In this document: positions 7,157 to 62,709 of the stretch, one piece after another
Numbering within the stretch: the first letter of the stretch is position 1
How the letters are laid out: the number at the start of each line of letters is the position of its first letter
NCBI GenBank assembly: GCA_027625915.1
Contig: JANTQA010000016.1
Coordinates: 2,423,001 to 2,487,000, forward strand
DNA: 64,000 bases
Direction: 5' to 3'
From: Anaeramoeba flamelloides
Taxonomy: Eukaryota > Metamonada > Anaeramoebidae
Notes under the pieces: model-generated
Database searches by the model: none
The model's input: the letters and a program-made list of their open reading frames with translations, nothing else
What the model was told of the DNA's origin: nothing
Translations under genes and position numbers: made by a program

Positions 7157-10100
7157 ATGTTCAAATTCAGCAAGAAAAAAAATCTTCGCTATATTTCTGA
7201 AAATGTTGAATTATACTTGGCAAAGAAAATACTACTTCCACCTCTTCAAGAAAGAAGAAAAAAATATTGGTGCGGAGAACGTTATGTAAAAGTGAAAACT
7301 ATCCCAACTTGGGAAGATTATGTGAAAGGGCAGCTCGCTTTAAAAAAGGAATTACCTCAAAATTCACTTGAAACAATTAAACATGAACTAAATAAAAAGG
7401 TTGCTGTATGGAATGGCGATAGCACAAGACTCGAGATCGGCTCAATAGTAAACGCAGCTAAGAGATCACTCAAAGGGTAAATTTTGTTCATATTCCTTTT
7501 GTTAATTTAATAATTTTGAATTTACCTCAAAAGTCTTGTAAATTTTTTTTTTTTTTTGTTATTTTGGATTTGTTCCTGTTCTTTTTATTTTGTTTTTGAT
7601 TTTCTTTTCTTTTTCTTGAAAACATGTCAAGTGTTTCATTGTAAACTTGAGATTTTCTTTGTATTTCGAGAAATGACCAATACTGAAGATTAAATTCCAA
7701 ACAAAACAAAACAAAAAAAGATTTACTTAAGTCCAAACGATTCATTCACCAAACGATCACTGAAAGTTTCAATTTGTAAAGAAATAAAGTTAAAGTCCTT
7801 TCCGAAAAATGGTGTTTGATCTAACTATTTTTTTGAGCTACGAAACAGCTTTATTGTAAATAAAGTGAACTTTTTTTCTCAAGCTTTGTCTTTTTCATTT
7901 GGTTGATAAAATTAGTAGATCCAAAGAAAAGAAAATTGAAATAAAACTAAGTTTGTCCACTGAAAATTTTGAAATTTTTTTTGATTTTAAACAACAAGGG
8001 AAAAGTTGAATCCTTATTTTCATTTGAAAAATATCAATATCTATTTCGGCAATCAGTAAAAGATCGAAATTTCAGGAATGATCCTGAAGATTTTAGATTA
8101 AGATCTCGTTATTGCCTTTTAAATCTCATTTACGCTGATTCTTTTGGAATTATTTTCAAATATTCAGAAGCCATCCAACTTTTAAAATAATAATAATTAC
8201 CAAAAACAACTTTCTAGGGTAATCATGATATTAATTACTTATTTTTAGAGATATTTTTATCCATATAGAAACCTTTTTTTATATTTAATAATTTCTGTTA
8301 TCTATCAGATCTCTTCCACAAAAAAATCCTATGTATTGTTTTTAAGATAGTAATCAAAACTGAAAATGAATAAATAAACAAACAAAAAAAAAGAATCGAG
8401 AAAGTTACTATTTCTCTATTCAATTCATGATAAAATTGATACAATTAATGGAAAAGTTTACAAAATGGTGATAAAGTTTAATATCCCATAATAAATGAAA
8501 TAAATATCATGATATTTTTTTTTTTTTTGGAATTTTATTTATGAGAGGTGATTTAACAAAATTACATCATGTTTATCGTTAGGTTTTCTTGAGTTTTATC
8601 TTTATTCCAAAAAGCCAAAAAAACCACCGTTAGATTTTCTTGGGTTTTCGGTTTATTTGGGAAAAAAAAAAATTGCCGTTAGATTTTCTTGAGTTTTCTG
8701 TTTATTTCGAAAATCGATAGATTTTCGTTAGGTTTTTTTGAGTTTTCTATTTATTTGTGAAGTGTTCTAGGTTTTTTTGAGGTTTTATATTTATTTGTTA
8801 AGTGTTCTAGGTTTTTTTTACTTTTCGAAATAAACAGAAAATTTATTAATAAATTTTCGGTTTATTTCTAAAGTAAAAAAAACCTAGAACACTTAACAAA
8901 TAAATAGAAAACTCAAAAAAACCTAACGAAAATCAATAGATTTTCATTAGTTTTTTTTTTACTTTAGAAATAAACCGAAAATTTTAATAAATTTTCTGTT
9001 TATTTCTAAAGTAAAAAAAACCTCGAAGACTTCACAAATAAAATAAAAAACCTCAAAAAAACTTAGAACACTTAACAAATAAAACAAAAAAACCCAAGAA
9101 AACCTAGGCACCTGGCAGCACCCCCGGAAACTTTAAACCCCCATTTAGAATTTTTTACACTAGTTATAATGTCGGCATGATCACAACCCTTAGTATAACT
9201 TTTATTTTAATACAAAAAAACAAAACGTTTATTTTTAAACAAAGACAAAAAAAAAATAAAAAGACAAATAAAAGAGATTAAACAATACAAATTTAGCAAA
9301 AATTAATTTTAAAAGTTCTGTTTTACATCTTGAGTGAAGAATTGTGTTATTGGTTGTTTTCCCTTATGCTAATTTTTTCGAAAAGTTCTGGATCACCATC
9401 GCAATATTAACACATGTTTGCATAATGCCTTACTTAACAGAAGTTGACCCCTCTTCAATGCAGAAGTACACTTTCAAAATTAATATGATATATTGTTAAT
9501 AAATTTTGATTCTTGTCTACAAATCCACTCTTAACTGCCATTAAATACCAGTACTTAAAAATTACTCTAATAGATTTATCCTTTTCAATTTAGAAATAAA
9601 ATTTAGACACTAAAAAGAAATATCCATAAGAGGAAAATAAATAACGAAAAAATATTTTGTTTAAAGTATTTATTCGTCGATTTTTCTCATTTACCCATAA
9701 GAAATGATTGTTTTCTTTCATAAAAAGTTTTTGTTACAGAGCAAATATTTCTTCATTTCTCGAATTATCGTGAATAGTTTCATCCCAAGAATTTATATCT
9801 GAAAAAATTGTTTTGTTTGCGATCGTAAAGAATGCATATGTATTTAATCAGAATAATTCAAAATAAAATGTTTAACCTTAAAAAATGAAACAAATAAAAT
9901 AAATTTTATTTTTGAGTTTCTTCAGTCTTTCTGATTTTTTACATGTGTCAAATTCATTTGAGATTATATTTTTTTTTTAAAAAAACACACCAACAACCCT
10001 TGAATCTATCTATAAACTATATCTCATGGTTAGATATTATCAGAATATATTTTTAAAGTCTTGCCTTTTCTTTGGAATTAAAAAAAAATAAACTTGCTTT

Positions 10101-11702
10101 TTACTACTTTGAGAAATCACAAAATCAATTTATCAAGTCTAATTGCAAGTTTGTTCCATTAAGAGAGTTTTCCAAATTAAAAAAAAGAATAATGTAACTC
10201 TTTAATTGAACTCTTTGAGAATTGAAACAATTTATACAATTTATGGATCTGAAAGATTTTTATTTATTTATTATTATTATTTTTTTATTGCAAAATGGAA
10301 ACTATGATTACCATCCGATATGTTCGATGATTTTATAAATGCAATTTTACTTTAATAAAAAACATTTTTAATTGAATTTAAAAATAAAGGAATATATTTG
10401 AAAGAAATATTCAACCAAGGAGTGCTAAATCATTTATTAACACACCAAATAATTAATATTTTTTCACTATATATCTTATAAATCCCGTCTTTTGTTTTTC
10501 AAAAAAAGATTTAACTAAAAAAATATTTTTTTTAAACATCTTAAAATCGAAAAAAATCACTGATAATAATTTAAAAAGTTTATTTGAGGTGTTTTTAAAA
10601 AATAAATTAATTTTAAATTAGCTAGTAAATTACTTTACCTTTTGAATAACTTCAAATAGATCAATTTAAAAAAAAGTTTGACAAATCACTTTTCAAGAGT
10701 ATTTATCATCAGTTAACAAACTCTAATAGATCTATTTTTTTTTTCAGGGCTTTATTGAAAAATTTTTTGCTAACATCCTTTTAATACGGATTTAGTAATC
10801 TATTCAAAATATAAAAATAAACTAGTCAAAAAAAAAATAATAAAAAAAAAATCCAAAAGAATAAAAGATTAAAAAAATTATTATCAAAAAAAATAAACTG
10901 ATTGATCAAGGGTTTATACCAATTTACCAAAAATTAAAAATTTTACTTTTATATAATATTCATAAACCAATGTATATTTATTTATAATTATTTTCAGTTT
11001 ATCTGCGAAAAAATAATAATTACCAATTCCTTAAATTCTTTTATTTTGACAATTCGTATTTGTTTTTTTCCAAATAGGGGCGGTGGTATTGATGGCGCTA
11101 TTCATAGGGCCGCTGGAGGCAAATTTTACAAAGAATGTTGCTCACTTCATGGTTGTAATACGGGAGAAACAAAAATAACACTGGGTTATAATTTACCAGC
11201 TAAATTTGTTCTGCACACAGTGGGGCCACAAGGTTACAAACCGAAATTATTAACAAGTTGTTATCGAACATTATTAGACTTGATGGTTGAGTGTAAGATC
11301 CGCACAGTGGGTATTTGTGGGATTTCAACAGGAATTTATGGATTCCCATTAAACCCAGCAGTTAACATTGCATTAAAAACAACACGAGATTGGCTTCTTG
11401 AAGACAACCATTTAGATTTAGTTGACAAAATTGTCTTTGTTACTTTTTTAAAGAGAGAAGCGAAGGCATATGAAAATTATATGTATAAATATTTTCCATG
11501 TGATTTTGACCAATTAAGAGAAGAAATTAAATCAGAGAAATATGAAAAAAAGAAAAGAAATACAAAAAGTAAAAAAAAGGTAACAAAGAGAAATCAAAAT
11601 ATTATTATCAAGGAAACTGAAAAAAGTGAAAATAAAAGAAATAAAACACAAAAACAAATTAAAGAAAAAAAGGAAATAAAATGTGAAACACAAAAAAAAT
11701 GA
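7157..11702 (+). CDS. MacroD-type macro domain protein (ADP-ribose hydrolase)
   Basis: Two exons, 7157-7476 and 11078-11702, join in phase 2 to give 314 residues. MacroD enzymes bind ADP-ribose and remove mono-ADP-ribose from acidic residues or hydrolyse O-acetyl-ADP-ribose. The domain spans about 80-250: VAVWNGDST, IVNAAKRSL, then the glycine loop GGGGIDGAIHRAAG formed exactly across the splice, TKITLGYNLPAKFVLHTVGP, and the second phosphate loop GISTGIYGFP at 188-197. The usual NAAN is NAAK here, a change in a residue that often contacts the ribose. N-terminal residues 1-78 resemble the extra N-terminal segment of MacroD proteins. The tail after about 255 is Lys-rich low complexity. Splice sites are GTAAAT and AATAG. 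The intron of 3601 bp is exceptional and is described separately. Confidence 0.92.
7969..8190 (+). other. Orphan coding-like frame inside the macro intron
   Basis: A 73-codon open frame in the sense direction whose composition is more protein-like than the surrounding intron: FRNDPEDFRLRSRYCLLNL followed by YADSFGIIFKYSEAIQLLK. It begins with TTG, not ATG, and has no obvious donor at its end. I recognise no family. It may be a relic of an inserted gene or mobile-element protein, or chance. Confidence 0.3.
8535..9250 (+). repeat. Foldback repeat family FB, copy 1
   Basis: The core at 8577-9125 begins CGTTAGGTTTTCTTGAG and ends AAAACCTAGGCAC, which are inverted relatives. Inside are nested hairpins, the clearest an arm TTTACTTTAGAAATAAACCG pairing with TGTTTATTTCTAAAGTAAA across a few A/T bases (about 8960-9020), and an earlier one at about 8805-8890. 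The left flank (8535-8575, GAGGTGATTTAACAAAATTAC) and the right flank (9126-9250, ending near AAACAAAGACAAAA) recur at copies 2 and 4. It is in sense orientation relative to the host gene. Confidence 0.8.
9351..9480 (+). repeat. Repeated coding-like segment, copy A
   Basis: Alignable by eye, at about 70 percent, to the minus strand of 16735-16895. Both contain a GTGTTxTTxGTTGTTTT block and end in a CTTACTTxACAGAAGTTGA block. In both introns it follows the foldback repeat in the same orientation. Frames are interrupted in both copies, so no product is claimed. Confidence 0.6.
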
Positions 11703-11805
11703 AAAAAAAAAAAAATGATAAGAAAAGAAAATAATTAAAAAAAGAAGCAAAAATCGAAAATTAATTCAAAATTTTTACCAATTAATGATAGAATGAAAAA
11801 ATTAA

Positions 11806-11989
11806 TTATTCCTTGGGACGAAAAAAGGATAAATTTATTTTTTTTTCTCTTTGTCTAGAAGATCGTGAATTATCAATATTATGTGTCAACGAATCATGAA
11901 AATTTGAAAAAAGATAAATTTTTTCGACTTTTACTTTTTCATGATCCCAATAATCAAATAATAAATCAATAATTGTGGTTTTAGACAAT
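11806..11989 (-). CDS. Candidate 3'-terminal exon of an unknown gene
   Basis: A protein-like frame of about 60 codons (LSKTTIIDLLFDYWDHEKVK, then a polar, basic end FFRPKE and stop) is preceded by an acceptor-like AATATGTAG. It looks like a last exon. I found no upstream exon in 12000-15500, and it does not join in frame to the BTB exon. The family is not recognised. It could be a stranded remnant. Confidence 0.25.
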
Positions 11990-12779
11990 CTACATATTTT
12001 TTTAAAGTAAAATATTTTTTAGAATTTAGATCCATATTGTAAATTTAATTAATTTATCAAGAGTTAGAATCTAATTATGTATGATCAATAGTTGGTAATT
12101 TCTGATCATTCAAAATTGGTTTTCTGTGATTTCTGTGATCATTCAAAAATTGATTGTAGAATAACCAAAATTTTAAAGGTAAATGTATGATCCTATAATA
12201 TTATACTTTTTAATAATATTGAGAAACATTACAATATTTTTAAATATCAGAATGGATTTTAGAAATATTTTTTTGATATCATGAACTTTTAATGTTTTTG
12301 AAAATAACTAAACAGATTTAATTTTCAAAAAATATAATATTTTTTATGATGATATTTAACTAGGGGGGATTGATACACCTTTAAATCTCTATTTGGAGTC
12401 TTTAAAAAGATAAAGAAAGTAAAAAAGAAAATGTTGGGAAAAAGACTTTAATTCATTCAAAATTGTTTTTAGAATTGGAAAATAAAATTTACTTTTTCAG
12501 AATTAACATTTTTACCTGAAAATCAAAAAAATGTTTGTGTAACGTATGAAAGATTTTGACTTTTTGATCTAAAAAAAAATAGATTCTCAACACAATTGAA
12601 TAAAAAAACAGAACAGATTACAAAATTGATGTAAATACAAAATATTAAAATCATCAATACTAAATATTTTTTATAAAATTTGTTTCAAACCCAATTTTAA
12701 TACACCAAAAGTTAAGTGGAAGATTTTTACTGTTTAAAACAAGTTTCAAAAGTCTAGACCCTCTCTTTATTTTTTTTTC

Positions 12780-12960
12780 CAAATCCTAAAAAAAAAATTC
12801 TCCAACCTACCCAAACATTCCCACCAAAACTCACTCTAACATACCCTAACTTACCATACCATACCTTGAACTACAAGAAAAAATGGTTTTTAAATACCCA
12901 CAACTAATATCTTTCAATTGGATTGACTATTCTGAAAAAATGAAAAAAAAAAAAAATAAG
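12780..12960 (-). repeat. Dispersed repeat family R4, inverted fragment
   Basis: The reverse complement of 4500-4690, including the G-rich short units, here seen as C-rich (CTACCCAAACATTCCCACC, ACATACCCTAACTTACC). Only this part of R4 is present. Confidence 0.6.
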
Positions 12961-13374
12961 AATTTGACCATATTTGACATTTAATAATTTTACTGAATTA
13001 TTTAACAATTTTTTTTTGTTATTTTTTTTTATATGACTTAAAAAGATGTTTTAGAAAGAAATTCATTTTAAAATTTTAATTTTAATACAAAAAATAAATT
13101 TCAGTTTTCTTTTGATTCAATATCTGTTTGTATTTTATCTGAATAAAATGACAATTTCTCAGTAATATTTTTTAAAATTCTACATCATAAAATCGACAAA
13201 AGTATTTTATAATGATTATTAATAAATCAATATATTACTGTTTTGAATTACTATTATTATAAAAAAATTTCATATTTGAAAAATTCAAAATAAATTAATA
13301 AATTTTAAAAAATATCAAAAATGAATAATAATTATTTTCACAAGTTGAAAAAAAATACAATAACACAATTAATT

Positions 13375-14419
13375 TAAACTCAATTCCAAAAAATGGGATA
13401 CAAAAAAAAATTACATTAATAAAAATATACTCCAAAATACAAGATACATAAACATTAAAATAATAAAAGATCTGAAAATATTTAATTAATACTATTTATA
13501 TATTTTATAGTAAATATAAAATTTAATTCAAAAAATAAAAAAGAAAAAATAAAAAATAATGTGCCCCTATTTTTGGAACACGGTTACCAAAAAAACCATT
13601 TTTATTGAAAGAAAAATTAATAAAAACTATTAATAGATTCAGCTTTTTTGATAACTAAATCTATCCTTATATCTAGAGTTTACTAATTTTCTAAGGTTTC
13701 CCAACTCAAAGTATTCCATACATTAGTGAAAATTTTAATAAATTCTTCTTCTCCGTTTTTTGGATTACAATTTTTCAGTTTAGTATCCATAATTGACCAT
13801 AAATTCCCAATTGGGTTTGAATCTGGGGAATAGGGGGTCAAGGGTCCATAACATTACACCCACGGTTTAAGTAAGTTTGAGTTTTTTTTTTGAAGTGTGT
13901 GGACAAGCTCCATCCTTTTGGAAAATACATTTCAACTCACCATATTCTGAATTGGCGAGTTGAATTACATTTGATTTTTTGAAAATATCATTAATAATAC
14001 ATTCAGTATTCACATTTCCATTAATGGTAATAAGGTCTGTTTGTTGGCCATGTGCTCAAGCACCCCATATCATGATTTTTTTTTCAAAAAAAATTTTTCT
14101 TGATAAAAAAAGAATCTTTTTACATTTTTGAGAGAAGAAAAAAATTTTTTCTTGTGATCAGAATCAAAACTTTTAAATTTCATTTTAAAGTGATTTTGAG
14201 ATTTTCGAAAAGTTTTGAAAAAAAAGAATACAAAAAAAATCAAAAAAATTATTGAAAATCAAAAATCAAAAAATAATGAAAAAAAATGATAAATAATTAA
14301 CTTTAAAATTATTTCTATGGATTGTTAATATCTAATGTTTCTATTTAAGAGTCAAATATCACTTTTCTTAGAATTAAATTGATTTTGAAGGTGTGCCCCA
14401 ATTTTTGGAATTGAGTTTA
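13375..14419 (-). mobile_element. Tc1/mariner-like DNA transposon relic
   Basis: Inverted ends: TAAACTCAATTCCAAAAA at 13375 and TTTTTGGAATTGAGTTTA at 14402-14419, about 1.05 kb apart. On the minus strand the decayed DDE part of a transposase reads KIMIWGA, then DLITINGNVNTE, QKDGA followed by PHTSK (second-Asp region), and YSPDSNPIGNLWSIMD, the classic SPDLNPIENLW block with Glu changed to Gly. Several frame changes and stops are present and the N-terminal helix-turn-helix part is not visible, so it is inactive. A third terminus-like sequence, GTGCCCCTATTTTTGGAAC, lies at 13561-13579 in the orientation of the right end, suggesting that a short derivative (13375-13585) is fused to or nested in the left end. 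Confidence 0.85.
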
Positions 14420-15504
14420 TTTTTGAACAGTTTTGAGTTTTATAATTCAAATCTGGATTAAAGATTAATAACAAAATAAATTTATTAACTTATCAATATC
14501 ATTGTAAAACTTTTTTTAAAAGTTGACAAAATTTAGGCAAATCGGGCTGCTAAGGGGTATATATCATAATAAAAAAAACTTGTTTTATTTTTTTCCATAT
14601 TTTTCTTGCTATATTTTCTCTATATAAGAGAAGAAGAGTTGCAAAGTAAAAATATCAAGTGCTTAGTTACTAATATTGGAGGCACTGGAACACAAAAGTA
14701 TGAATAACTTGAAAATTAAAACTAAAAAGTAAAAGTAAAAATGAACAAAGGTTAAAAGTAAGTCAGATTAAAAAGAAAAAAGAAATTACAATAATTAAAT
14801 AACAATTCCCAAATAAACATTCATGATCAATTATAAAATTAAATTAAATTAACCAAAAGTTATAGTAGTTGCGATTCTGGGTGTTCTTATTTATGTATAG
14901 CATTATTTTTTTTTATTTTTTTTTTTTTTGATTTTAACCAATTTCTTCCTCAAATCTTTTTATTAATTTCCTTTTTTTTCTTTTTTCCTTTTTTCTTTTA
15001 AATTTTTTGTTCATACTTTTTAACCAAAAAGAAAATTTGGGTATGTATTTGCGTTGAACAATTGTGGAATCAATAATTTTATTCTTAAATTACATTTGTG
15101 GAAATTTAAGTAAAATAATATGTAGAATATAATTTATACCTCTTCGATTAATAATAAAAAAAAAAAAAAAATTTTTTTATTGTATAAAATTTTGACAAGA
15201 TAACATTTTAAATACTTGCTGAGATGTTATATTTTTAATATTTATATATAGAAATTTATTTAATTAGAATTTTAAATTTTCAGAAAGAGATCCATAAACT
15301 AAATACCATTTAAGATCACTGGAAAATTATTTGATTCAAGTGATATTTCTATAAAAAGGAAATAATTTTTAAAATAAATTTTCAGAATCAATTTGATAAA
15401 TTATTTGAAAAAATATAAACAAATAAAACCATAAAGAAGAAAAAATGCATGGAAACAGGCAAGGGAACATTAAAAATAAATCAGGATATTTTCAAAATTG
15501 TTCA

Positions 15505-18500
15505 TTAATTTTTTCCGTTTATTAATAATTTACTATTTTTATAAGACATATTTAAATAATTAAACGAGCAATTTAATTTTAATTGATAATAATTAACTGA
15601 ATCGTTAAGTTCTTGCTGTATTTTATTAGTTAATTGGTTTTTATCAATTTTCCGAGTATATAAATATTTGATTATAATATTTAGTGAATCATAGGTACGG
15701 ATCGAATAATCTGTGATTTTATTTATATTATTTGAATCATTTGCTGTTAAAAACATTCCTCTAAATAGCCCGGTTCTGCATTGCAAAATTATTTTATGAA
15801 CCTTAATTTTTTGATTTGAATTTTTCATTATTATTGTAAAATCCTTTGACGTTTCGTCTTGATATAAACCCTTTATCGATTTTGCAATCGTATTGCTTTT
15901 TATCGAATCGAGTGGAACTTGTAATTGTGTAAATATTTTGATTAATTCCAAATTTTGTTTCTTTTCTTTGCTATTATTATCATCTGGTTTCAAGAGGTGT
16001 TTCCAATGCTTTGGCAATTTGTCGTAATAAACCCATTTTAAAAATTGAATTATCGAAGTTTTACTATACAATTTGAGGATCATTGAAATTTCGTGGATTT
16101 TTTTTTTTGTCCGAAACTCTAATAATAATCTATGGAATTTTACTCCTTTAATTTCATAATCAGTGAATTCTTTTCTCTGAAAAAATTGTCTGAAATCATC
16201 CTGTAAACAATTAAAATTAATTTCTGATAATTGCTTCAATTTATCTATCTTTGATGGATAATTCGAATAATTTTTATAGCAATGATCAAATATTGTATGT
16301 CCTTTTTTCTATATAAATAAAAATATTAATTATGTTTTATTTTAATAAAATTAAAAAAATCGGAAATAATTATTTAAAGTATTAATAAAACTATTTTATT
16401 GAAATTGATTATTTTTTATTTGTTTCATTTTATTGAGGAAAAATGCAGATAGATTAAATAACTATGCAATTTGTCTGAAAATAAAAATAAAAAAAAAATG
16501 AAAAATTCAATTTATATTATTTCTCCATTAACTTTTCTTGAGTTTCTTTATTTTTCTCTAAAAAAGATTTTTTTTTTCAGTTGTTTTTTTTATAAAAAAG
16601 TAGAAAAGAAGTAAAATAATCAAAGGTGTGGTTCTAATTTAATAATTAAATCAATAAAGAAGAGAAATGATAATGTCAATTTAAATTCTTCTTATATAGA
16701 ATTTTACTTTGACTGGAATTAACTTCTGGCGAGTATAGTAATAACAACTCCCATTGGGATCAACTTCTGTCAAGTAAGACATTACTCAAACAGATTAGTA
16801 TTATCACGAAGATCAAGAAATTTTTGACGATCCATAAAATTTCGACATAACAAAAAACAACGAACAACACCTTCAACACTTGGATTCAAAATTAATTTTT
16901 TTTTTTTTTAATTAAATTATCGCTTATTTTGTTATTTTTTAATATCTTTGATTTCAGAAAACTAAATTGAGTTAAAAATACTTCTAATGACTGTAATTAA
17001 AAGGTTCTTTTGACTACTTTTTGAAAAAGGAGTCACACATTTAGTCACTTCAAAACCCTCCCTTTAACAGATAAAGAGCTTTAGAGCACATAACCATTAC
17101 CAATAAAGCCTAATATCTTTGATTTCTTTCTTTCTTTTCTTTCTCCATATCTTGTCATTGTTTAAAAAAAATTTTTTTTTCAATTCATTTTTTAAAGAAA
17201 AGATATACTATGAGTTATAATCTTACCTAAATGATAGTTAGGATAAAAAAAAATCCGAAATAGAGTTTGAGTTTCAGGAAGTGTTATGGAGTGCTGTCAA
17301 GTGCCTAGGTTTTTTTAAATTTAAGAAATTAAAAGAAAATTTATTTAATTTTCGGATAATTTCTTGAAAGAAAAAAACTCCAACGGCACTTTTCTTGAGG
17401 ATTTCTGTTTATTTGTGAAGTGTTCTAGGTTTTTTTTGAGGTTTTCTATTTTATTTATAAAATCAAGAGGTTTTCCAAATAAAATATAAAACCTCAAAAA
17501 AACCTATAATACTTCACAAATAAAATAGAAAACTCAAAAAAACCTAACGAAAATCAATAGATTTTATAAATAAAATAGAAAACCTCAAAAAAAACCTAGA
17601 ACACTTCAAAAATAAATAGAAAACTCAAAAAAACCCAAAGAAAATCTATTGATTTCACAAACAAACAGAAAACTCAAGAAATCCTAAAGGCGCTTTTCCA
17701 GAATTCAAAAGAATAGAGTAAAATCAAAGATTTTTCTTTATTCTTTTAAATTCTGGAAAAGTTAAAAGTTTTTTATTTCTCAAATTAAAAAAAAACTAAT
17801 GGTAAATAGGAGGTAATTTTGTTGAAACACTTCTCATAATTAACAATTAAAAAAAAAAAAAAAAAAAAATTTTTTTTAGAATTTAAATAATAATTAACAA
17901 ATTGTTGTTTTTTGATAAATTAATGTATTTTTTAACTGCAAGTTATTTTTAAATTAGAATCGTTTGAAAATATTTTGAGAAAATAAAGAATTTCAACATT
18001 ACAATATGACATATGAACTCCAATTCAAAACTTTTAACACACCAAAATTTAACTTTCTAAAAAAATAATCTTGTTAATCAATTCTAGAAGAAATACAAAA
18101 TTAGAACTATTCACTAATTGGAATATTAACAATCTTTTATAAATTAGAATGCCCACAAAACACAAAATAAATAATTACCAATACTAATAAATTATCTGTT
18201 TGTTAAAAATTTTGGAGAGAGCAAAACACAAAAAATACATTGGTAAATTTGTTTAAATTCTATAAAGAATATTGATCGATCAAATGGTTAGGTGCCATCA
18301 ACTAATTGCTTTTGAGTTTTTCTTGTTGAAAAGAACTCAACTTTAGCCTAATATTAATTGTTCGAAAAATAATTTGGATCAAATTTAACAAGTTAAGTAA
18401 TTAAAAAAATTAAATGAAAATAAAAAATCAAAAAAATGAAAAAATGATGTTCATATTTTACAAAAATCAAAATTATTTCAAATTTGAATGAAATTGTATT

Positions 18501-18902: not shown

Positions 18903-18939
<37 letters not shown>

Positions 18940-22769: not shown

Positions 22770-23440
22770 CAGTCAAAGGGGCCCAGTTGTAATGGTATAA
22801 TACATGTGTTTAAAGAGTTTGTATAGATATTAGAAGAAAAATTTTATTTTGGAAAATTTTCAAAATTGAAATCATTTTTAAACATTTTTGTTTTTTTTTT
22901 TCGATTTTTTTTTAAAACGTAATTCAGTTGCAAAAAATTTTTTTATTGCAAGATCAATAGTCACTTGGTAAAAATGTGTTATTCTAACGTTATTGGAACC
23001 ATGTAAAGATTATTGAGAAATCATATTGATTTCTATTGCAATTCTATTCGATCTTTGATCTTGATATGTATTTAATAAATGTGAAAAATTCCCACTTCAT
23101 TTTCATTTTCTTTTTCAAAAAGAGACCACAAATACCAACAAACTTCGTTTGGGGCTTAATTTCTAAATGAAAAGTATGGAAAATGAAGTGAAAATTGTTT
23201 CATATTTATTATTCAAATACCAGTAGAAGTTCAAAACGAACATCGTTGTTTTTCTAAATAGGGCCCTAAGAATTTGAGTTTTTCAATTTTTAAGAAAATC
23301 CATTCATTAATTAGTTTTCTTTCAGACATATATCAACAATTCTTTGATGTGTATTATTCTGTTTATTTATTATTTGTTCTTCAAAGGTCAATTCTATAAA
23401 ATAATTGATATTTGAAAAAAAAGTTGGGCACCTTTGACTG
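22770..23440. mobile_element. MITE-like element with CAGTCAAAGG ends, copy 1
   Basis: Perfectly placed terminal inverted repeats: CAGTCAAAGGGGCCCAG at the left and TTGGGCACCTTTGACTG at the right, differing at few bases, 671 bp apart. No ORF of note inside. Related sequences lie at 27895-28470 and 52860-53430. No obvious TA target duplication flanks it. It is probably a non-autonomous DNA transposon. Confidence 0.75.
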
Positions 23441-24119
23441 AAACAGAGTTTACGAAAATAATAAATTAAAATATTGTAAGTTATTTACAAAAAAGTGGTA
23501 CTTTTTTTTTTTACATTTAATAATAAGATATCTTTATTAGTCGTGTTATTGGTTAATTTTTAATACCAATTAAGTTTAATATTAATACCAGTTGAATCAA
23601 TACCTCTTTGTCTTTATTTCAAAATATCTTCCTTACAATTTTTTTATAGAAATTGAAGAAAAAAAAAGAACCCTTTTTTGTAAAAAACGATACAGATCCC
23701 ATTTCAATAAAAAAGCTTCATTTACCAAAAACCTAAATTATTTTTTGCACAATAAAATAAATTTATTATATTTCAATTCTATTGAAAATTTTTCAAGATT
23801 AAAGAAGTTCTGAAAAGGATTTTTTTGATCAAAAAAACAAAAAAGAATTTTCAATTTTCACTCCTAAAAAATATCAAATATTTTAAGTGATGTAGAGCTG
23901 AAAAATATAGCATTATTTTTTATATTTTTTTTAATAATTTTTTCTCGAGAAACATTTCAGATAAAATAGAGATCTTGAAAATTTAAAATATTTTTTTAAA
24001 GTAATTATATACTACCAAACAAATTGGATTATTTAAAAGAATCAATAACTAGTGATTAATGATTTTGAATATTTAAATCGTTTTATGAAGATTGGATTTA
24101 ATCAAGGTATCTTAAAATA

Positions 24120-24960
24120 AATTGACAACTTTTTTTTTGCAAACCAAAATTCAAAATTTTCACGACAGTTCGAACATTTCAAATGATCACAACAATATAA
24201 TTTCATTCCAATTTGAAATAATTTTGGTTTTTGTAAAACATGGAAATCATTTTTTCATCTTTTATTTATTTGTTTTTAGTTAATTTTTTGAATTAAATAA
24301 CTTGTTTTGTTTGATCAAAATATTTTTTCGAATGATTAATATTAGATATAAAGTTGAGTTGTTCAAAATAGATGAACTCAAATGAAATTAGTTAAATTGG
24401 TATCTCAAGATTTTATTGATCAATATTCTTTATAGAATTTAAACAAATTTACCAAATATTTTTTTGTTTAACCCATCTCCAAAATTGTTTACTCACTTGA
24501 TTTATTATTAACAGTTCCACTTTAAAGACAAAAACTTTCAAAGAAATTGAAGAATAAAAAATGTTTTCAAATTAAGGTGTAAAATCCAGATTCTAGTATA
24601 AAAAAAATTGTGTAAAAAAAAAGTCCAAAAAATGTTCATTAATTTAAGATAGTTTTGTTGCTTAAATTATGTTTAAATTTTGTGTCTTTTAATTGGAACT
24701 GACTGCAGTATAAATAATTATTTGTTTTTCATTTTCACATTTTTGTCATAGATAAACAATTGTTACTATTTCAATTAGTGAAGGGTTTTAAATTAGTTAG
24801 TTCTTTGAGAATTGATTAAATAAGATTTTTTTTTTTCAAAAATTGAATTTTGGTATTTTAAAAATTTTGAATAGGAGTTTATTTCACTATATACTTTTGT
24901 TTACATCAAAGGATTTTCAATTTATCTTACCATTTAGCAGATTCATATATAAATTTTTTT
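24120..24960 (+). repeat. Dispersed repeat family R2, copy
   Basis: It shares with 36280-36840, and with the reverse complement of 17960-18490, the order TAAAGTTGAGTTGTTC, a TTGATCxATCAAT block, AGAATTTAAACAAATTTACC, and TTAAAAATTTTGAATAGG. The three copies diverge strongly in length of A/T runs. Confidence 0.7.
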
Positions 24961-25605
24961 TATTGATTTAATAAAAATTTTCAAACTTTTGATAAATTTA
25001 AAAAGATGTCTGAAAAGTTTTTTTTCATTTTCTTTTTTGAAATTTTTTTATTTTAGCTTTTAATAATGTATTTTATTGAGTTTAAATGTAAATCAACTTT
25101 GGAAAATTAGTTGATCTTTCAAAATAATCTTTCTCAAGAGTTGTATAAAAAGTTGAGTTATTAGATTTACAAAAATGTAAATTGAACGAAAAAAATTTTT
25201 TAAAAGTTTTTGAATTGAAACACATCAAGCCAAATTTAAAATCAAAATTTTTTCACCTCAGTAATCTGTCAGAAGTTTAAGATATTATATTCACTTCTAT
25301 TTCACTGAAACTCCAAAACATTTGAAAATAAATTGGATGTGAGAAGGAGAAATTTAAGTATTTTGGCTTTCAAAAATGTTCAATGTGAATTTTGTATTTG
25401 TAAAGAAAAAAATGGTTTGCCAAAATAGAAATATTACTGCCATAAAAAAAAAAGAATTTGGTTTTTGAAATACAAAACATCAAAAAATGAAAAATGAATC
25501 AATGTAATTCTCAAAATATTAAATGTAAGTAATCAAATTTTATTTTGGAAAGGAATCAAATTTCAAAATAAATCAAAAAATAAAAAAAAAAATATGGCGA
25601 ATCAA

Positions 25606-28600
25606 TTAATTCCATTCAACAACTAATTCATCGTTTAAGTTTTCATCTAAATTAGACACTGTGAGAACTTTAGTTTTTGCATTGTAATCAAATTGGCAGG
25701 ATTTGCCATTTACATTAAGAGAAGTTATAGGGCTCATTCCAAAAAATTTCAATAAATGAAGAGGTGTTGAACTTAAAGGTTGATATTTGCCATTTTTAAT
25801 AGTTGAGGTTAATTTATTGTTTGCGACATTAAAATGAATTTCACTATAATTATCACCAACTTCGATTGATTCTCCATCATCGACATATAACCAACCTGAT
25901 GCTTCACTGTTTGAATCTAATGCGACAATAAGTTCAAAATTGTTTTGGCGGGCTTCATACGTGGATAGGGCAGGGAGCTGTGCGGGTATGATCTTGCCGC
26001 CCTTAAGTAGTATTGGCATGGTATCAATGGATGCAAGGAATTGCATGTGTAATCCATGTACTTTATTTTCCAGTTTATTCATTACACTTTCGCCTGTTAG
26101 GTAATTATACCAGTCATCATTTGGCACATATCCCTCAACTGATGTTGCGCCTTCTTCAAGGACTGGGAAGATGAGGAAACTATCGCCGACCATGACTTGC
26201 TCGTCAAGATACCAAGTGTCGGAATCTTCGGGGTAATCATACATCATTGCGCGCCACACGGGCATGCTGTCTCTTGCAGCAGATTCAAAAGTGGTATAAA
26301 GATAAGGTAGTATGTAATATCTTAATTCAATAAAGCTTTTAATGGTATTTCTTGCATCTTCGCTAAATGCAAATGGCTCCTGTGATCGCATGTTTTGAGA
26401 ATTATGGTTTCGAGAGAAAGGATAAAATACACCAAGTTGGGACCACCTTACACACAATTCTTCTGTGGTTTCTCCATTAAATCCACAAATATCGGCACCC
26501 ACTAAAGGAACACCAAATAAATTAAAATGAATGATTCCTGCAATTGATTCCTTCATCCATTCAAATGTACTATAATTATCCCCTAACCAATGTTGGCCGT
26601 GCTTTCCCTGCCCAGCAAAGGTCGACCTTGAAATGATGGCAGTTCGCTTTCCTGGGAAGATTTCATCAAAGGCTTCTCGAGTGACAATGGTTTCAGTATA
26701 GCCATACATCGAATGTGTATTAAACGCACTTGAGATGTACTGTTCCGATTCAAGTGTTATAGTACGTTGACTTAAACATCTTCCACCTGGTACATATGGA
26801 TAATTATGTACTTTTTTTTATTATTTTTTTTTAATTTGTTTTTAAATAATTTGGAGTTTTGATAAGAAAAAAAAAAAAAAAAAAGAAGATATTAGGGATT
26901 TTTATAAATTTAAAATGATTTAATGGAAATTTTGAATTTTTTATTTGTTTATTTATTGTGGAAGAAACGAACAATAAAAGAATATTTTATCATTAATAAA
27001 AAAAAAAAAAAAAAAAAGAGAAGAAGAAAAATAATTGAAATATTAACATAAAAAAATCATAATATCATTTGTATGGCCAAATTAAAAATTTATCCACTTT
27101 ATTTTGGTTTTCTTGAGTTTTCTGTTTATTTGGAAAATCAATAGATTTTCGTTAGTTTTTTTTTACTTTTCGAAATAAACCAAAAATTTATTAAAATTTT
27201 TTGTTTATTTCAAAAAAACCTAGAACACTTAACAGATAAAACAGAAAACTTCAAAAAAACCTAGAACACTTAACAAATAAAACAAAAAACTCTAGGCACT
27301 TGACGGCACTCTACGGCACTTTGTTACACTTCGACGGAATTCAAAGGAGGGGAAAAATCCGATAAAAAAATTATCAATTATAAATAAAAATTTCACAATC
27401 TGTGATTAATAATTGGTATTCCACTGTCGTTAGGTTTTTTTTTTTAATTTATAAGAATGGATTAAAATCAAAGGTTTTAATAAATTCTTTTAAATTAAAA
27501 TAAATAAAAAAACGAGACATTACCTCAAAAAGTGGGGAACGTGTACCCGAATTTATATATTTTATACTATATACAAGTATTTTTTTATTTTCAATTTTTT
27601 ATTATTAGTTTTTCTTTTATTACCTTAAGTTTTCTAGCCATTAGTGTTTTGATGAAAAATTATCTTCAAAAACAACAATAAATTTCAGAATTTTGATTAA
27701 CAAGATTCAAGATATTTTGAGTATTTTTTCTTAAAATTATGAATTTTTCACGAATTGATGAGTGTTTCGCGAATTCATACCTTTTCAAGAATTTATTTAA
27801 TTTTTATTTAGAAGTTTAATTGTAATGACTTTCATTTAAGGTTTGAAAATTTCTATGATAACCATCAAAATGCATCATATCGAAAATTAATCATTTTCCC
27901 ATGAAAGGTGCTCAGTCCAAGTTGACATGGGTTAATTATATATGTTTAAAAGGTTTTTAATTAATATTAGAAGAAAAAAATTATTTTGGAAATTTCATAA
28001 TTGAAATCATTATTTTCACATTTTTTCTTTTTTTTTTTTTTTTTCCGATTGTATTCTTTTTACCTAATCGTTTTGCAAATTTAATTTTTATTGCATGATT
28101 TATAGTCACTATTGGTAAAAACCTGTTATTCTAAGGTTAATGAAACAGTGGAAAAGATTGTAGAAAAATCATATTGGTTTCTTCTGTAATTTTCTTTGAT
28201 CTTCAATTGAAGATCAAAATTAACATTGTTGTGTTTTTTAATAGTTTATTAAGAATTTTAATTTTTCAATTTTGAAGAAAATATATGGATTGATTAGTTT
28301 TATTTCATACGGGTATCAACAATTCTTTGATTTGCATTATTCTACTTATTTCTTATTTCTTCTTCAAAGGTCAATTATAAAAAATAAATATTATTTGGAA
28401 AAAAATTTGGGGATTTTTAACAGAAACAATGTCCATTTTTATACTAACCTTTTTTGTTCAAAATAAAATAAAGTATTCGATCAAATATCATCCTTTTAAA
28501 AAAGCATGAATAATAATTTTTCAATAATATCCCTTTAAAAGTTGGTATATTTAAGTAGAACTATTTTCTGAAATATATTAAAATCGTTTTGTTCTCATTC

Positions 28601-31600
28601 TTTTCAAATGGCTTTATCTTTGTTTCAATTTATTTTAATGAAAAAATTTTATTTATCTGGAAATTTTTTAAATCTTTGTAATTGTTATACATCCCAAAAT
28701 GAGTACTCACACAAAAATAAGAAATGAGTAAAGTGGTTTACATAAATGATAAGTAATCACATTTTGATTATATAATACGCTATATCCTCAAAATTCGAGA
28801 AAATTTATTTCAAAATTTCTTTATATACTCAATTCTGAATATAATTATTTAACAATCCAAAATTGTTATTCATGGTTTATTGATTATTAACAATAATTTA
28901 ATTTTGTTTGTGAATATGGTATTACTTTAATTAAATATCTCAAAATTTCTAATAACCATTTTTAATGATATTTTTCAAGTGCGCGAAAATTGGTGTGTAT
29001 TTTTTATCTTTTTGATCCAGAAAAAAATTGTTTTCATTAGACAGAGGTTTAATCTTAATAAAATTCCAGATTGTTGAAAAATTTATAGCTGTAATTTATT
29101 GTTTAAAAAATCGTTTGTATCGTTTCCATAATTCCAGTTTTTTTTTGAAATTTATCAGTAACTTGTTTTGTCTCAAAAAAAAGTGTTTAATGTTTTTTCA
29201 TTTATTGGAAATATTTTGATGAATATATTTTGAAATACAAACAAAAGGTTCTGGTTCAATACAGTATTAATATTCCACTTAATTTTATATTACCAAATTG
29301 CAAATAGAACTACTTAAAAACATATATTGTATTAAATGTAAAAAAAAAAAAAAAAAAAAAAAATGCCATGTGTTTTTGGAAATCCCTCCAAAAGATAAAA
29401 AAAATAAGATAAAAAAGTATCGTATAATCAAGATCGAGTATATAGGATAAATTGACTTTTTTTATCACACTTTTTTCTCATTATTTAGCATAGTATGTGT
29501 TTAATTCTTATCTTTGGGTATAAAATAAATTGAAAGTTTTTTAAATTTTATTAATCTCAATTTTAACATATGTGTTAGTTATTTTTTTTTTTTGGTTTTT
29601 CAAATAAATTCCAGGTGATTAAAGTATATCACATATATATCACACTGATCTTCCAGGATTTTTTTCTCATAAAGATAAACAAATCTAATTTTATTAATTA
29701 TAAGATTAATAAAGAAACAAATTTTTGAAAAAATTATTTTGGAGAAATCAATTTTTCTTTTATCTTGTTGATTTTTTTCTGAGTTTTGGTTAGGTTAGGT
29801 TAGGTTATAATAGAACCGAAATAAAATGATTTATGTTTTTTTTTTTTTTTTGTTTGACAAAATTAAAATTAAATAAAGAACTAGAAGAAGAAGAATAATA
29901 ATAATTAATATAATCAGAGAAAAAAATTTTTTAAATTTACCATTATCGTCACAAATTTCAACAAAATTAGAAGCTTCGTTCATATCAATCCAAATGGAAT
30001 CAAAACCAATATCCTTATGATATTGTTCAAACAATGCTTTCCAATATTCCTTGGCCTTTGGATGTGTAAAATCAGGGAAATAGGTATATCCTGGCCAAAC
30101 TTTACCAAAAAATGGTGCACCTGCACTGTTTTTTACCCAAACATCTAATTCGTTTCCAAGTTCATATGCGAAATAATCAGATTCAATTTTGATTCCGGGA
30201 TCAATGATTGGGATATAATGCTTATGCTGTGCGTGTAGACTATCAGTAAATTCTTTGAATTCAGTTTTTGGAAATGTTGTAGGATTGAATGTAAAGTCTT
30301 TATAGTTATCCATTGTATCTATGTCTGTCCATTGCGTATCTAAAGGAATTTCATATTTATTAAAATTGTCAACAATATTTTGAACATCAGCTATATTTTT
30401 ATATCCCCATCGGCATTGATGCCATCCTAAATGCCAATAAGCGGCTCTGTATGGTTTTCCAATAACTTCTTGATATCTTTATTTTTTTTTGTTTTTTTTT
30501 TTTTGTTTTTGAAAAAATGAGTTGTATTAATAATTATATTCTTTTTACAAGTATTTAAAATGAATTTTTGTTTTGAAAAAGACATAATTTTTTTTTTTTT
30601 GAGACTAAACTTCAATAAAGATAAGTTTGAATTTGAAAAAAAATAAAAAAATAAATTGATAATATTTAAAAGTTTAATGTTTGATAAAAATGAATCTATC
30701 AGATTAAACAAAAAAAAAAAATAGGATAAGAGTTCCGAAAGATATTTTATCTTGATAAAAAAAATTAATAGAGAATCGAAATTAGCACTTTAAACTTTTT
30801 AAAAAGTTTTAATCATTTTAGTTGGATTAAGAGTAGAAGAAATAATATCCTGAATTTCCTTCATACTTGGGCAGTGACTTAAACTCTTAAATTGATAATG
30901 TGAAAGTAGAATTATCTTTTTGTTGGAAAAATCAAAAAGAAAAATAATAATGATAAAGATTCAAATGATTAACAGTATCAAAAGTTCAGATTTAGAAAAA
31001 AGGCCAATGTTTTTTTGTACTTGTTTTTATTTTCAACATGCTTAAATTTCTTCAATTTTGGGTTAAATCGAATTCTTTTGATACAAAATCAATTTAATTT
31101 GATTTAATGAAATATTGGTTATTTTGTAATAATCAAAATTTGACAAAGTAAGGATTTTTTAACATTCTTTAAGATCAAAATAACTCATTTTTGAAATGAA
31201 AAAAATGAAAAAAAAAAAATCTATTTAAGAGATCTCAAAAATGGGCCAATTGGCCACACACCTAGAAAATAACATTCTTGTATTCAAAATTCTAAGAAAG
31301 ATATTTTAAAACTTGAAATTGACTTTTAATATTATTGCTTTATTTAAAAAATGCTATTGATTCGCATTGTTGGTTTGTTGAAATTTATTATAAAGTATTT
31401 CCAAAAAACTGAGGAATTTTTTTATTTTTTTAATAATTCATATAATATTATGTTTGAAAGTTGTTATATTTATAACTAGGTAATATAAAATTAACAGGAA
31501 TATTACTACTTATTAAATTAGAACCTATTATGTATGTGTTTCAAAATATATTTGTAAAAAATCTAAAAAAAAAATTCATTTTTTTTTATTTATTTATTTA

Positions 31601-34600
31601 TTTTTGAAAAGAGGTAATTCAATAAAATTACTTCCTTTTTGCCGTTAGGTTTTCTTGAGTTTTTTGTATATTTGGAAAATCGATAGATTTTCGTTAGGTT
31701 TTTTTGAGATTTCTGTTTATTCAGAAAATCAATACATATTCGTTAGGTTTTTTTTTACTTTAGAAATAAACCGAAAATTTTAATAAATTTTCTGTTTATT
31801 TCTAAAGTAAAAAAAAACCTAGAACACTTTAACAGATGAAACAGAAAACCTCAAGAAAAGGGCCGTTAGGTTTTTTTTTACTTTTTGAAATGTAAAGAAA
31901 ATTTATTTAATTTTCTCTACATTTCTCAAATTAAAAAAAACCGCCGTTAGCTTTTCCAGAATTTAAAATAATTGGGTAAAATCTTTGATTTTACTCTATT
32001 CTTTTGAATTCTGGAAAACCACCGTTAGCTTTTCTTGAGTTTTCTGTTTATTTGGAAAATCAATAGATTTTCGTTAGGTTTTTTTTACTTTAGAAATAAA
32101 ATAGAAAACCTCAAAAAAACCTAGAACACTTCACAGATAAAACAGAAAACCTGAAGAAAACCTAGGCACTCTACGGCACTTTCAGAAACTCTAAAATTTA
32201 TTTAGAATTTTTTATAAGAGCTATCATATAGACAAGATTATAACTCAGAGGATATCTTTTGTTTAAAAAATGAAAAGAAAAATTTTTTTAAACAAAGACA
32301 AAAAATTCACTTTTTTTTTTTTACAAAGCAATGTACTGATAAATTCAATAAAAAACTGGAAAATATGGTATGGGTACCAAACGATTTTTTAAACAATAAA
32401 ATACTGTTATAAGTTTTCAATTCAATCTGGAATTTTATCAAGATCAAATCTCCTTAAGGACAACAATTTTAAGGATCAAAAAGAAAAAAATAAACACCAA
32501 TTTTCATGCACCTAGAAAATGTCATATAAAATGAATAGGGTTATTAGAAATTTTGAGATCTTTCATTAATTTAATGTCTTACAAACAAACAAATTGAATT
32601 ATAATATAGAATCAAATCTGATAAATAACAATTTTGAATATTTAAATAATTATAAACAGCTGCTCCAACTCTACCATAAAAATTTACTTGACATAGAAAT
32701 TGATTTTCAATTATAAAATTATATTCTGTTTAATAAATCGTGGAATGGTTATGAAAGTTTATTATAAACCGTAAAATTTATCATAGAAAAAAAAAAAATT
32801 CTGTAATCCATTTTTTGATTTTGGAAATTTACAAACAAATTGATACAAAGGCTTACATTAATGCTGATCTTCAATTTCCAAAATTCAAAAAATCAAAGGT
32901 TTGTACAATTTAAAAGCAATTCTTAAAAATACTTTTAAGTTTCTGTGTTTTCTGTAACTTCTGTGATTTCTGTGATTTCTTTTCTTTTGAAATTCTAATT
33001 TTTGTCTTGGTTTTTATTAAATAAAAAAAATAAAAAATTTCTCTTATGTTGGAAGAGAAATCGAAATTTTCTTTGATGATGTGATAGAAATTGAATTTTC
33101 TATTTCATAGCACACAATTTTATAATTGAAAATCAAGTTCAATGTCTTATAAATTTTTATGGTAGAGTTGAAACAGTTGTAGGAATTAAATTGAAGAAAG
33201 ATATTTTAAAATAAATTTGCCTACTTTTTAGGAAATAGCTTATAACATTTTCAAAAAGTGTTACAAAAAAGTTTTCACAAAGTATCTTTGAAACAGCCAA
33301 CAAACGTTAAAAGACCTATTTTTAATTCTCTATTAAAAACTTTTTTAGCTACACAATTTTTAAAATGACCTACCAACACACTCTATTTTGTTTTTAAGTC
33401 GAATTATGTTCCCATAAATATAGTTTAAAAAATTTTTTCACCCGAATAACTACAAGTTTGTACAGAAATCAACACTTATTATCAAGTACCGTTTTTGTTT
33501 GAATTTTGGATCTCAACATTAAATGCATTTAATGTTGAACCTATTTTTAATACTCTCGAAATAATGTTTTTACTGGTATTTGAAGAATAAATGGGAAAAA
33601 ATTTTCACTTCTTTTTCTACTATTGTTCTTTTCCTCTAGAACGATTTCAAAGAAATGGATTGTAATTTGTCTTTTTCTAATGATCTGTTTGAATCTTTTT
33701 TCGAAAATATATTTTTATAGGTATATTTTGGGTGAACTAAGAAGCCGTTAATGAAAGGATAATTGAAGAACTGAAAGATCAATCATCAGCCGAAATTTCA
33801 TCTACTTTTACTTTTCAAATACCCAGTATTTCAAGTAAATTATTCATTTCCAGTTTGGAAAATATCAAAATACAGCCTATATATCAAAATTAAGAATTGT
33901 GGAGGGTCTCACGATCAAAAAAAGAAAGTTGTCAAAAATATTTTGTTTTCAAAAAAATATCCAATTTTTTTCACTCAGCAAAGAGAGGAAAAAGTATTTT
34001 TTGGTGGAGAAAAAGAAAAACAAAAAAATTAAAAAAAAAAAAAAAGTTTACTGTGCCATTGTTTCATAAATTGTACCACCTGTAAAAACAAAAAGATCAA
34101 TTATACCACCAATAGTTCTCCAACTAATTGAAGTGTCATTTAAAACAACATCCATTGGGTTGGAATTTAACAAAAACAAGGCATGGAATTTTCCATTGTT
34201 TTTATTCAATTGGTAATAGACTGGGTGCACTCCGTACCAGTTATCATTAAAGCCATGGTTAATGTCAATGGCGAAATGGGTATAGACTTGGTTAAGATCT
34301 AATGGGAATTTGGATCGGCGTTCTCCCAAACCGAAAACAATTGGGTTTGCCTCCAAGTTGTTTGTCCACTCAATGTATTGCTTTTGGTAAATGAGTCCAT
34401 TGATTTGATTTTGGATTGGCTTGGTGTCGAGGAGCACGTAGTCATCACTGGTCCTTACAACTTTGAGTGAAAAGGGGTTTTTGGTGTATGTGACATCGTA
34501 GTCCATTTCGCCGGGTGCTGTGTTTGTGTTGTTTACTTGCGAAACATAGGGAACTTTAATTTTTTTTAGGAATTTGTTTCGTTTGGCGGTTGTGAAAAAG

Positions 34601-37190: not shown

Positions 37191-37196
37191 AAAAAA
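37191..37196 (-). terminator. RNA polymerase III terminator of the 5S gene
   Basis: Six consecutive T residues on the minus strand directly follow the last base of the 5S RNA, the standard Pol III stop signal. Confidence 0.8.

Positions 37197-62673: not shown

Positions 62674-62709
<36 letters not shown>

Follow-up and report, generated by a model that had tools for sequence, protein, structure and literature searches.

The locus considered here raises the question of how repeat copies with common outer flanks come to carry different sets of hairpins between them. In the window, by which we mean the whole 64,000-nucleotide stretch of Anaeramoeba flamelloides DNA that was analysed, an initial annotation had described four main copies of a foldback repeat, and the sequence bears out those copies, their varied hairpin combinations and the outer flanks common to three of them (Table 1). 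They exceed what chance would produce: with four module HMMs, trained on sequences that include the window itself, the matches in the window number 4, 4, 0 and 5, against 0 in 20 dinucleotide-shuffled windows. A comparison with its own genome, using the 31600 copy as query, returned 253 matching pieces from the best 40 of 6,963 candidates, and folding of the arrays gave z-scores of -16.75, -20.09 and -16.65 (100 shuffles each). The setting is nuclear rather than mitochondrial: the contig that contains the window is 4.18 Mb long and carries GH31, macro and SIR2 genes that are split. Genomes of Anaeramoeba have been described as very rich in A+T (PMC11550330). We consider it probable that two mobile layers are stacked at this locus, with retroposons on the outside and mobile hairpin cassettes within them.

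Table 1. Repeat copies and hairpin modules in the window
Feature	Position	Strand	Parts and remarks
Frame-1 retroposon, copy 1	8509-9398	- (transcript strand)	3' tail and poly(A) 8521-8582; array ~8583-9107; body lies rightwards of it (best match 9127-9225)
Frame-1 retroposon, copy 2	16829-17869	+	Opposite orientation to copies 1 and 4; body 17176-17294; array 17295-17795; 3' tail and poly(A) 17796-17857
Hairpin array without frame-1 flanks	27106-27509	-	Array 27106-27300, GGCACT spacers
Frame-1 retroposon, copy 4, 5'-truncated	31565-32305	-	3' tail and poly(A) 31593-31648; array 31649-32164; body 32165-32285
Module B hairpin, nested in D module	31748-31814	.
Module B-type hairpin, TACTTTTTGAAATGTA type	31875-31941	.
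Module A hairpin, TTTTCCAGAATT type	31953-32018	-
Module D hairpin arm, TTTTCTTGAG type	32029-32117	-
Much reduced, diverged copy	59090-59205	.	Carries one D-type hairpin (59110-59181), with no recognisable frame of either kind

Introns are the likely hosts of the four main copies. For the 27107 copy this follows from GH31 exons on either side (25609-26817 and 29834-30478), which correspond to profile positions 181-327 and 4-168. The 31600 copy falls in the interval from 30478 to a mutarotase-like exon at 34051-34962, and the order of open reading frames suggests introns of a macro-domain gene and an ankyrin/BTB gene for the 8535 and 17147 copies. Some details of the original description needed correction. 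The 17147 copy is genuine, but it is inverted with respect to the other two that share its flanks, its similarity spans the full interval given in Table 1, and it ends in a module other than the TTTTCTTGAG one. The 27107 copy has the modules and lacks the outer flanks common to the three frame-1 copies: to its right stands another high-copy repeat (~27337-27428; best 40 of 1,272 candidates scored), followed by a further hairpin at 27429-27509. The proposed fifth copy at 59090 shows a single module-D match, and neither frame could be recognised in it.

The frame itself, frame 1, is a non-coding poly(A) retroposon of ~1.1-1.9 kb and not a foldback DNA element, so that the foldback nature first assigned to it was wrong. 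A 3' poly(A) or A-rich tail is present in 16 of the 20 copies aligned at that end, with further tailed copies among the extended set, and the 5' end is T-rich in 10 of the 14 copies that were extended. Six of the ten copies with a T-rich 5' end have, beside the A-rich tail, a target-site duplication above all nine mismatched-copy controls (two of them narrowly), and the other four have none above control. Copy 4 in the window is likely flanked by such a duplication, AAAAATTCA, as read by eye. The foldback or MITE reading of the frame was dropped in view of these tails and of duplications that surround the retroposon. Judged by eye, a small terminal hairpin is present in frame 1 as well as in the LINE of the same genome, and each ends near CCTCYCTTCAAWAATAAA. 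The LINE machinery may mobilise frame 1. With fixed ends and a variable central array (28 arrays, 2-870 bp), frame 1 fits the pattern of a non-autonomous retroposon of SVA type.

The central array is built from a cassette of ~85 bp with near-fixed ends, GAAGTGCCTAG[G/C]-hairpin-[C/G]CTAACG. The corresponding syntax, AAGTGCCTAG-N55-80-CTAACGG, has 741 exact matches in the 254 Mb genome, and the reversed pattern has none. Among the 42 of these units that were listed and classed by hand, 31 belong to module A, 8 to B and 3 to D, and the loops of the 31 A units read AAAG in 12, TTTG in 7 and otherwise in 12. With one mismatch allowed, 19 of 26 filled frame-1 arrays contain CTAACGG, and the right end is thus not invariant; as a motif it is weakly specific (335 occurrences against 100-306 for letter-shuffled motifs), and an insert in the LINE open reading frame starts with GTCGTG rather than GAAGTG.

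The arrangement of these cassettes varies widely within the same frame. The 28 arrays resolve into 20 distinct module strings of 0-9 modules, scored from HMM matches of at least 34 nt that miss strongly diverged modules. Among the 11 closest valid body pairs listed (86-89% identity), the strings differ in 10 and agree in one, a twelfth pair (identity 1.000) having been excluded as overlapping body windows of a single locus; the modular exchange that had been proposed is upheld by this comparison. Cassettes stand in tandem and also inside one another's loops: a survey of 298,915 bp gave 65 outer-arm/unit junctions and 52 of the outer-arm/simple-loop kind. The spacer (GTAGAGTGCC)n varies in repeat number. 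In 5 of 17 arrays, drawn from the window and the extended flanks, the flanks could be assigned to no repeat, and insertion outside retroelements may therefore also occur.

Comparison of empty with filled sites reveals insertion without target-site duplication at the LINE 3' end, in the LINE reverse-transcriptase open reading frame and in a second repeat family. At the LINE 3' end, 7 of 10 LINE-downstream loci are empty (L077-L079, L081-L083, L086) and 2 are filled by one A cassette (L080, L085), with L084 not reaching that point; genome-wide, exact junctions at the target TTAGG/GCTG number 106 empty and 177 filled, and reversed controls number 0. The LINE reading-frame site is empty in all 5 loci chosen as empty, in 9 of 10 LINE-downstream loci and in 5 of 5 upstream loci. 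It is filled in L084, as well as in L022 and L012, which were picked for their arrays; in L014 an array follows the same left flank and a tail comes next. L012, where the array is inverted, is the sole locus for insertion in that orientation at this site. An RVT_1 domain is present in L022 and, genome-wide, in 150 scored places among 1,306 candidates. Thirteen pairs of places in the LINE reading frame, paired by eye, adjoin without a gap in empty copies, and because the frame is unbroken in those copies the empty state is likely ancestral there.

Frame 2 was contiguous, that is, empty, in 39 of 40 scored places and filled in 1; of the sequences read, two were empty and one filled. For frame 1, 40 places were scored among 318 candidates, including the one from which the query came, and all of them span the empty junction; its empty and filled sites differ by ~2 bp, so that clean insertion there is approximate. 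A common target sequence was not found, by eye, at the six kinds of insertion site compared. Also by eye, insertion sites appeared to be associated with neighbouring palindromes. These comparisons agree with the original view, in which a common frame gains hairpin units by insertion or exchange rather than being a simple MITE, and they extend to several host repeats. The idea of one common frame holds for frame 1, which is real, but there is more than one frame, and modules also occur in LINE reading frames, at the LINE 3' end and in other repeat families. Given that the same cassettes are found both in the LINE reverse-transcriptase gene and at its 3' end, the hairpins resemble an independent, small mobile element that travels with retroelements.

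These properties could be read in other ways. It is possible, if somewhat unlikely in our estimation, that the cassette is a non-autonomous DNA-level hairpin element moved in trans by an enzyme of HUH or recombinase type, with retroposons as frequent targets and vehicles. Near-fixed ends, duplication-free insertion and the inverted case fit such an enzyme as well as they fit template switching; for enzymes that recognise single-stranded hairpins, insertion into a hairpin loop is natural, and some array flanks were assigned to no retroelement. The lack of a common target visible by eye at the six kinds of site speaks against it, as do the termini expected of Helitrons, which have a 5' TC, a 3' hairpin with CTRR, an A/T target and no duplication: the cassette is duplication-free as expected, but its ends are GAAGTG...CTAACG and its LINE 3' target is that given above. 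An introner or other spliceosomal intron was likewise rejected, as the insert in the LINE reading frame ends in CTAACG and not in the AG of GT...AG. Improbable, in turn, is the proposal that the array is the ancient 3' region of a single retroposon lineage without mobility of its own, its variety arising solely by duplication, deletion and unequal recombination and its empty sites being deletions. Tandem palindromes are unstable, and the number of (GTAGAGTGCC)n repeats does vary in a VNTR-like manner; SVA and LAVA VNTRs are reported to be remodelled in a similar way (PMC4432496). However, the uninterrupted reading frame of empty LINE copies is hard to reconcile with this proposal at those sites, and identical cassette kinds occur in different host repeats.

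That the arrays are ordinary foldback or MITE DNA transposons, with subrepeats as terminal inverted repeats and target-site duplications of their own, would be very surprising. Their long nested inverted repeats and a fold far stronger than that of shuffled sequence are what one would look for in such elements, but the duplications surround the retroposon and not the array, frame-1 copies are poly(A)-tailed, and the empty and filled sites of the LINE and frame 2 show no duplication flanking the cassette. The reading is thereby contradicted for frame 1 and the LINE sites, although it may yet apply to the copy at 59090. We also regard it as most unlikely that selection keeps the hairpins as functional RNAs, for example as small RNA precursors. 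They are very stable and lie in introns and 3' ends, but the stems of module A are decayed, with mean Watson-Crick pairing of 83%, mispairing close to the divergence between copies and conserved mismatches that are inherited. Little compensatory change accompanies this decay save at the basal pair, and there is thus no sign of structural selection in module A, the one module so examined, and selection on stems was rejected for it. The basal pair is C-G in 24, G-C in 16 and otherwise in 32 of 72 units, and the loop AAAG in 30, TTTG in 13 and otherwise in 29 (n=72), a two-state pattern that suggests local inversion. A permissive Rfam search of two copies gave 17 and 32 matches, mostly to miRNA precursor models and a few to sRNA, leader and snoRNA models, all below gathering scores; at gathering score, the search of the whole window for known structured RNAs gave one match, a 5S rRNA outside the repeats.

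We return, then, to two stacked mobile layers. The outer layer would consist of non-LTR retroposons, the LINE with its reverse transcriptase and the non-coding frame 1, that spread by target-primed reverse transcription and so acquire target-site duplications. The inner cassette would enter at a point, without duplication, in retroelement sequence, beside an earlier cassette or in a hairpin loop, such that arrays lengthen through tandem addition and nesting; the host retroposon would then carry the array to new places, perhaps remodelling it en route. As to how a cassette enters, we favour template switching, in which the LINE reverse transcriptase passes from one retroelement RNA to another, over a DNA-level enzyme, and give it an even chance. 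More tentatively, and with some doubt, the cassette may represent a class of nuclear mobile element: a non-coding parasite of retroelements that enters LINE and SINE-like RNAs at reverse transcription without duplication, nests in its own loops and is spread by its hosts.

It is informative to set the cassettes beside known systems. To our knowledge, most mobile hairpin elements on record are mitochondrial or bacterial, and the literature searched showed no nuclear counterpart of the hairpin cassettes. The closest in behaviour are mitochondrial mobile hairpin elements and composite retroposons of SVA type; the comparisons below draw on excerpts of the papers cited. Sponge RHEs and Allomyces double hairpin elements are multiplying short hairpins, tandem as double or multiple units and located inside genes, and in Allomyces they have no duplications at their flanks and are suggested to move through an RNA intermediate (PMC2800124). 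The cassettes are likewise multiplying, tandem, genic and, as in Allomyces, duplication-free, and differ in being nuclear, present in hundreds of exact copies and many more that have diverged, nested in loops and carried by retroposons of LINE and SINE-like type. Yeast mitochondrial GC clusters (GC42) are also mobile palindromes that merge and shuffle, with RNA-mediated copying proposed (PMC4478555); unlike the cassettes, they are GC-rich and mitochondrial and have a putative target-site duplication (AG). SVA and LAVA are non-coding, LINE-mobilised composite retroposons with a variable central domain between fixed domains (PMC4432496), but their centre is a tandem repeat, whereas that of frame 1 is made of distinct hairpin cassettes that elsewhere are also separate insertions. 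The protist SINE EhSINE1 of Entamoeba likewise has target-site duplications, and its internal repeats vary in number (PMC2996970), although these repeats are of 26-27 nt and the excerpts mention neither hairpins nor exchange between families. Bacterial REP/BIME palindromes, likened to the cassettes by description, form mosaic arrays presumed to be mobilised in trans by REP-associated transposases (PMC2817692, PMC8266576), with no link to reverse transcription stated there.

For mitochondrial hairpin elements, the mode of movement is left open in the excerpts of PMC2800124 and PMC4478555. The Anaeramoeba cassettes, with hundreds of exact nuclear units, datable LINE hosts and sites both empty and filled, make the choice between movement by DNA and by reverse transcriptase testable by counting. 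They also show how a few exchangeable hairpin parts can make up an elaborately folded region of RNA, and point to one route by which long introns gain structured sequence.

The four main hairpin-bearing copies and the reduced fifth copy claimed by the initial annotation were all found in the window, where G+C content ranges from 19 to 34% in 2-kb steps (the source genome comprises 254 Mb in 76 contigs). Hidden Markov models of the hairpin modules, trained on sequences that include the window itself, gave 13 matches in total there and 0 in 20 dinucleotide-shuffled windows, and the folding proposed for the cores was carried out for three arrays, with the z-scores in the table. The intron placement put forward for the main copies is confirmed for the 27107 copy, which lies within an intron because GH31 exons flank it on both sides (profile positions 4-168 and 181-327); for the other copies it is weaker. 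On its right, the 27107 array is bordered by part of a different repeat, listed separately.

Features in the window and at two further loci
Feature	Location	Strand	Observation
8535 copy	near 8535		frame 1; array z = -20.09
17147 copy	near 17147		frame 1; array z = -16.65
27107 copy	near 27107		between GH31 exons
Right flank of 27107 array	27318-27440		repeat with 1,272 genome candidates; hairpins on both sides, here and in L095
31600 copy	near 31600		frame 1, 5′-truncated; array z = -16.75
5S rRNA match	37196-37317	-	single match, 50 bits (gathering score 38); several non-standard pairs; perhaps diverged or a pseudogene
Long open frame	49370-52369		lysine/glutamate-rich, simple repeats
Reduced copy	59090-59205		inward-facing AAGTGTC-like sequence at each end, which differs from the asymmetric cassette; may be a separate inverted-repeat element
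Long open frame	62212-63999		lysine/glutamate-rich, simple repeats
Array in L025	L025:850-1600		left flank frame 2, right flank frame 1; a chimera with the array as the join
L071	C57:10289000-10293500		different reverse-transcriptase element

Frame 1, the non-coding element that hosts three of these copies, is a retroposon. A 140-bp hairpin-free flank had 1,112 genome candidates, of which the best 40, including the query itself, were scored; the first 20 by rank among the 39 non-self places formed the sample. One end could be aligned directly in 16 of them and consists of a T-run and then fixed sequence, which on the opposite strand reads as a fixed 3′ terminus plus poly(A) tail. Fourteen of the 20 copies were extended, and 10 of these have a defined T-rich 5′ end, ~0.8–1.5 kb before the array. 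Judged against nine controls per copy, built from the flanks of other copies, six of these ten have a target-site duplication above all controls, two of them narrowly (13 vs 12 and 17 vs 15), and four have none exceeding the controls. By eye, the duplications start with A and the element carries an A tail, both of which are expected from L1-type target-primed reverse transcription; also by eye, the 31600 copy is likely flanked by the duplication AAAAATTCA. At the joined locus L043/L060 (places 7929 and 8283), a filled copy lies directly upstream of an older, array-less copy into which it may have inserted.

Between the fixed body and fixed tail of frame 1, the array is modular. Parsed with four module models (A, B, D and E), 28 arrays of 2–870 bp (26 of at least 60 bp) yielded 20 distinct strings, from empty (two copies) through AB (six copies) up to ABDDABABE. 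The closest valid pairs by body identity (86–89%) carry different strings in 10 of 11 cases, among them AEE, ABA and ADDD, and share AB in one. Across 72 aligned copies of module A, the arms average 85% identity between copies and 83% pairing within copies; three mismatched positions are inherited, not mended, and the stems therefore decay once inserted. The module A loop is AAAG in 30 copies, the inverse TTTG in 13 and something else in 29; this two-peaked distribution agrees with small inversions like those reported for template switching within hairpins (PMC8794818).

The suggestion of hairpin units in a common frame is supported by the variable strings between a fixed body and tail, but that frame is a retroposon and one of several. 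When 20 places were fetched with the whole 31600 copy, BLAST found frame-1 body or tail in seven (L011, L012, L018, L020, L023, L025 and, as a short piece, L022) and neither in the other 13. Inspection by eye identified flanks of a second repeat, frame 2, at L009, L017, L024, L027, L028 and the left side of L025; flanks from the open reading frame of a LINE at L012, L014 and L022; and further flanks that are only partly classed. The modules recur in frame 2 and LINE ORFs besides frame 1. The LINE is abundant in the genome: two pieces of its ORF have 7,136 and 7,133 candidates (best 150 scored for each), and L022 contains RVT_1 (5.5e-09; the L012 match falls below the cut-off). Of 17 listed arrays, five from the window and 12 from extended flanks (chance arrays in L016, L017, L071 and L086 uncounted), 12 were assigned by eye to frames 1, 2, 5, 6 or the LINE and five to none, so some insertions may lie outside retroelements; frames 2, 5 and 6 are repeats, and genome searches scored best candidates only. 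The chance array at L071 lies ~3 kb from the reverse-transcriptase element there, so arrays are dense in the genome.

Because the two LINE ORF pieces adjoin gaplessly in 13 pairs (by eye, among the best 150 places each), the ORF is normally uninterrupted at the insertion site. Among 20 short LINE stretches (five chosen as empty, ten downstream of one piece's good matches, five upstream of the other's), this site is empty in 19, reading AACAAACA/ACAAAAATATTT or close variants, and filled in L084; it is filled at the same point in L022 and L012, both picked earlier for their arrays, and L014 has the same left flank, then runs into a tail. At the LINE 3′ end, seven of the ten downstream stretches are empty (...TTAGG/GCTGTAAGAGG or close), L080 and L085 are filled at the same point by one module-A cassette, and L084 ends before the site; across the genome, the empty junction has 106 exact matches and the filled right junction 177, but the two patterns differ in length, so these numbers are not a frequency. 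A single LINE copy, L012 (3362 bp), carries three arrays, one inverted in the ORF where relatives are empty. For frame 2, 39 of the best 40 places run through without an insert, against one filled place, emptiness being overstated with an artificially joined query on which contiguous matches score higher; read directly, two are empty and one filled. For frame 1, with the same bias, the empty junction is spanned at every one of the best 40 places among 318 candidates, one of them being the source of the query; apart from the insert itself, the two forms of the site differ by ~2 bp.

Inserts in these hosts start with GAAGTG or a close relative (GTCGTG at the LINE ORF site) and end with CTAACG. 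Of 26 filled frame-1 arrays, 25 carry AAGTGCC at the left end and 19 carry CTAACGG at the right, each with at most one mismatch. Longer syntax motifs occur 58–83 times in 298,915 bp, against 0–7 for letter-shuffled versions; CTAACGG alone barely exceeds its controls (335 vs 100–306). Genome-wide, the full syntax, AAGTGCCTAG-N55-80-CTAACGG, is matched exactly at 397 forward and 344 reverse places, and the reversed pattern at 0. The D module loop is often swapped for a further unit with related flanks, AAGTGTTCTAGG...CCTAACG (over those 298,915 bp, 65 outer-arm/unit vs 52 outer-arm/simple-loop junctions).

Among known systems, mitochondrial hairpin elements behave most alike, as tandem units that insert in genes; those of Allomyces are described as lacking flanking duplications, and an RNA route is suggested (PMC2800124). 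The GC clusters of yeast, though they merge and shuffle, bear putative duplications (PMC4478555). Among composite retroposons, SVA and LAVA come closest (PMC4432496), and among protist SINEs whose internal repeats vary, EhSINE1 does (PMC2996970). Among the open-licence papers listed, no title or abstract opening showed a comparable nuclear hairpin cassette, which is weak evidence of novelty.

No target-site duplication was seen at the cassette insertions compared, and by eye donor and host have a few bases in common at the insertion points: GG for the LINE 3′ end, ACAAA for the LINE ORF site and GAAAATC for frame 2. Because of these two features we favour insertion by two template switches of reverse transcriptase between RNAs; the main rival is a DNA-level enzyme, which would also join hairpin ends without duplication. 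On the simplest account, a hairpin cassette would be set repeatedly into retroelement sequence, and retrotransposition of the host would then carry the inserted cassette along.
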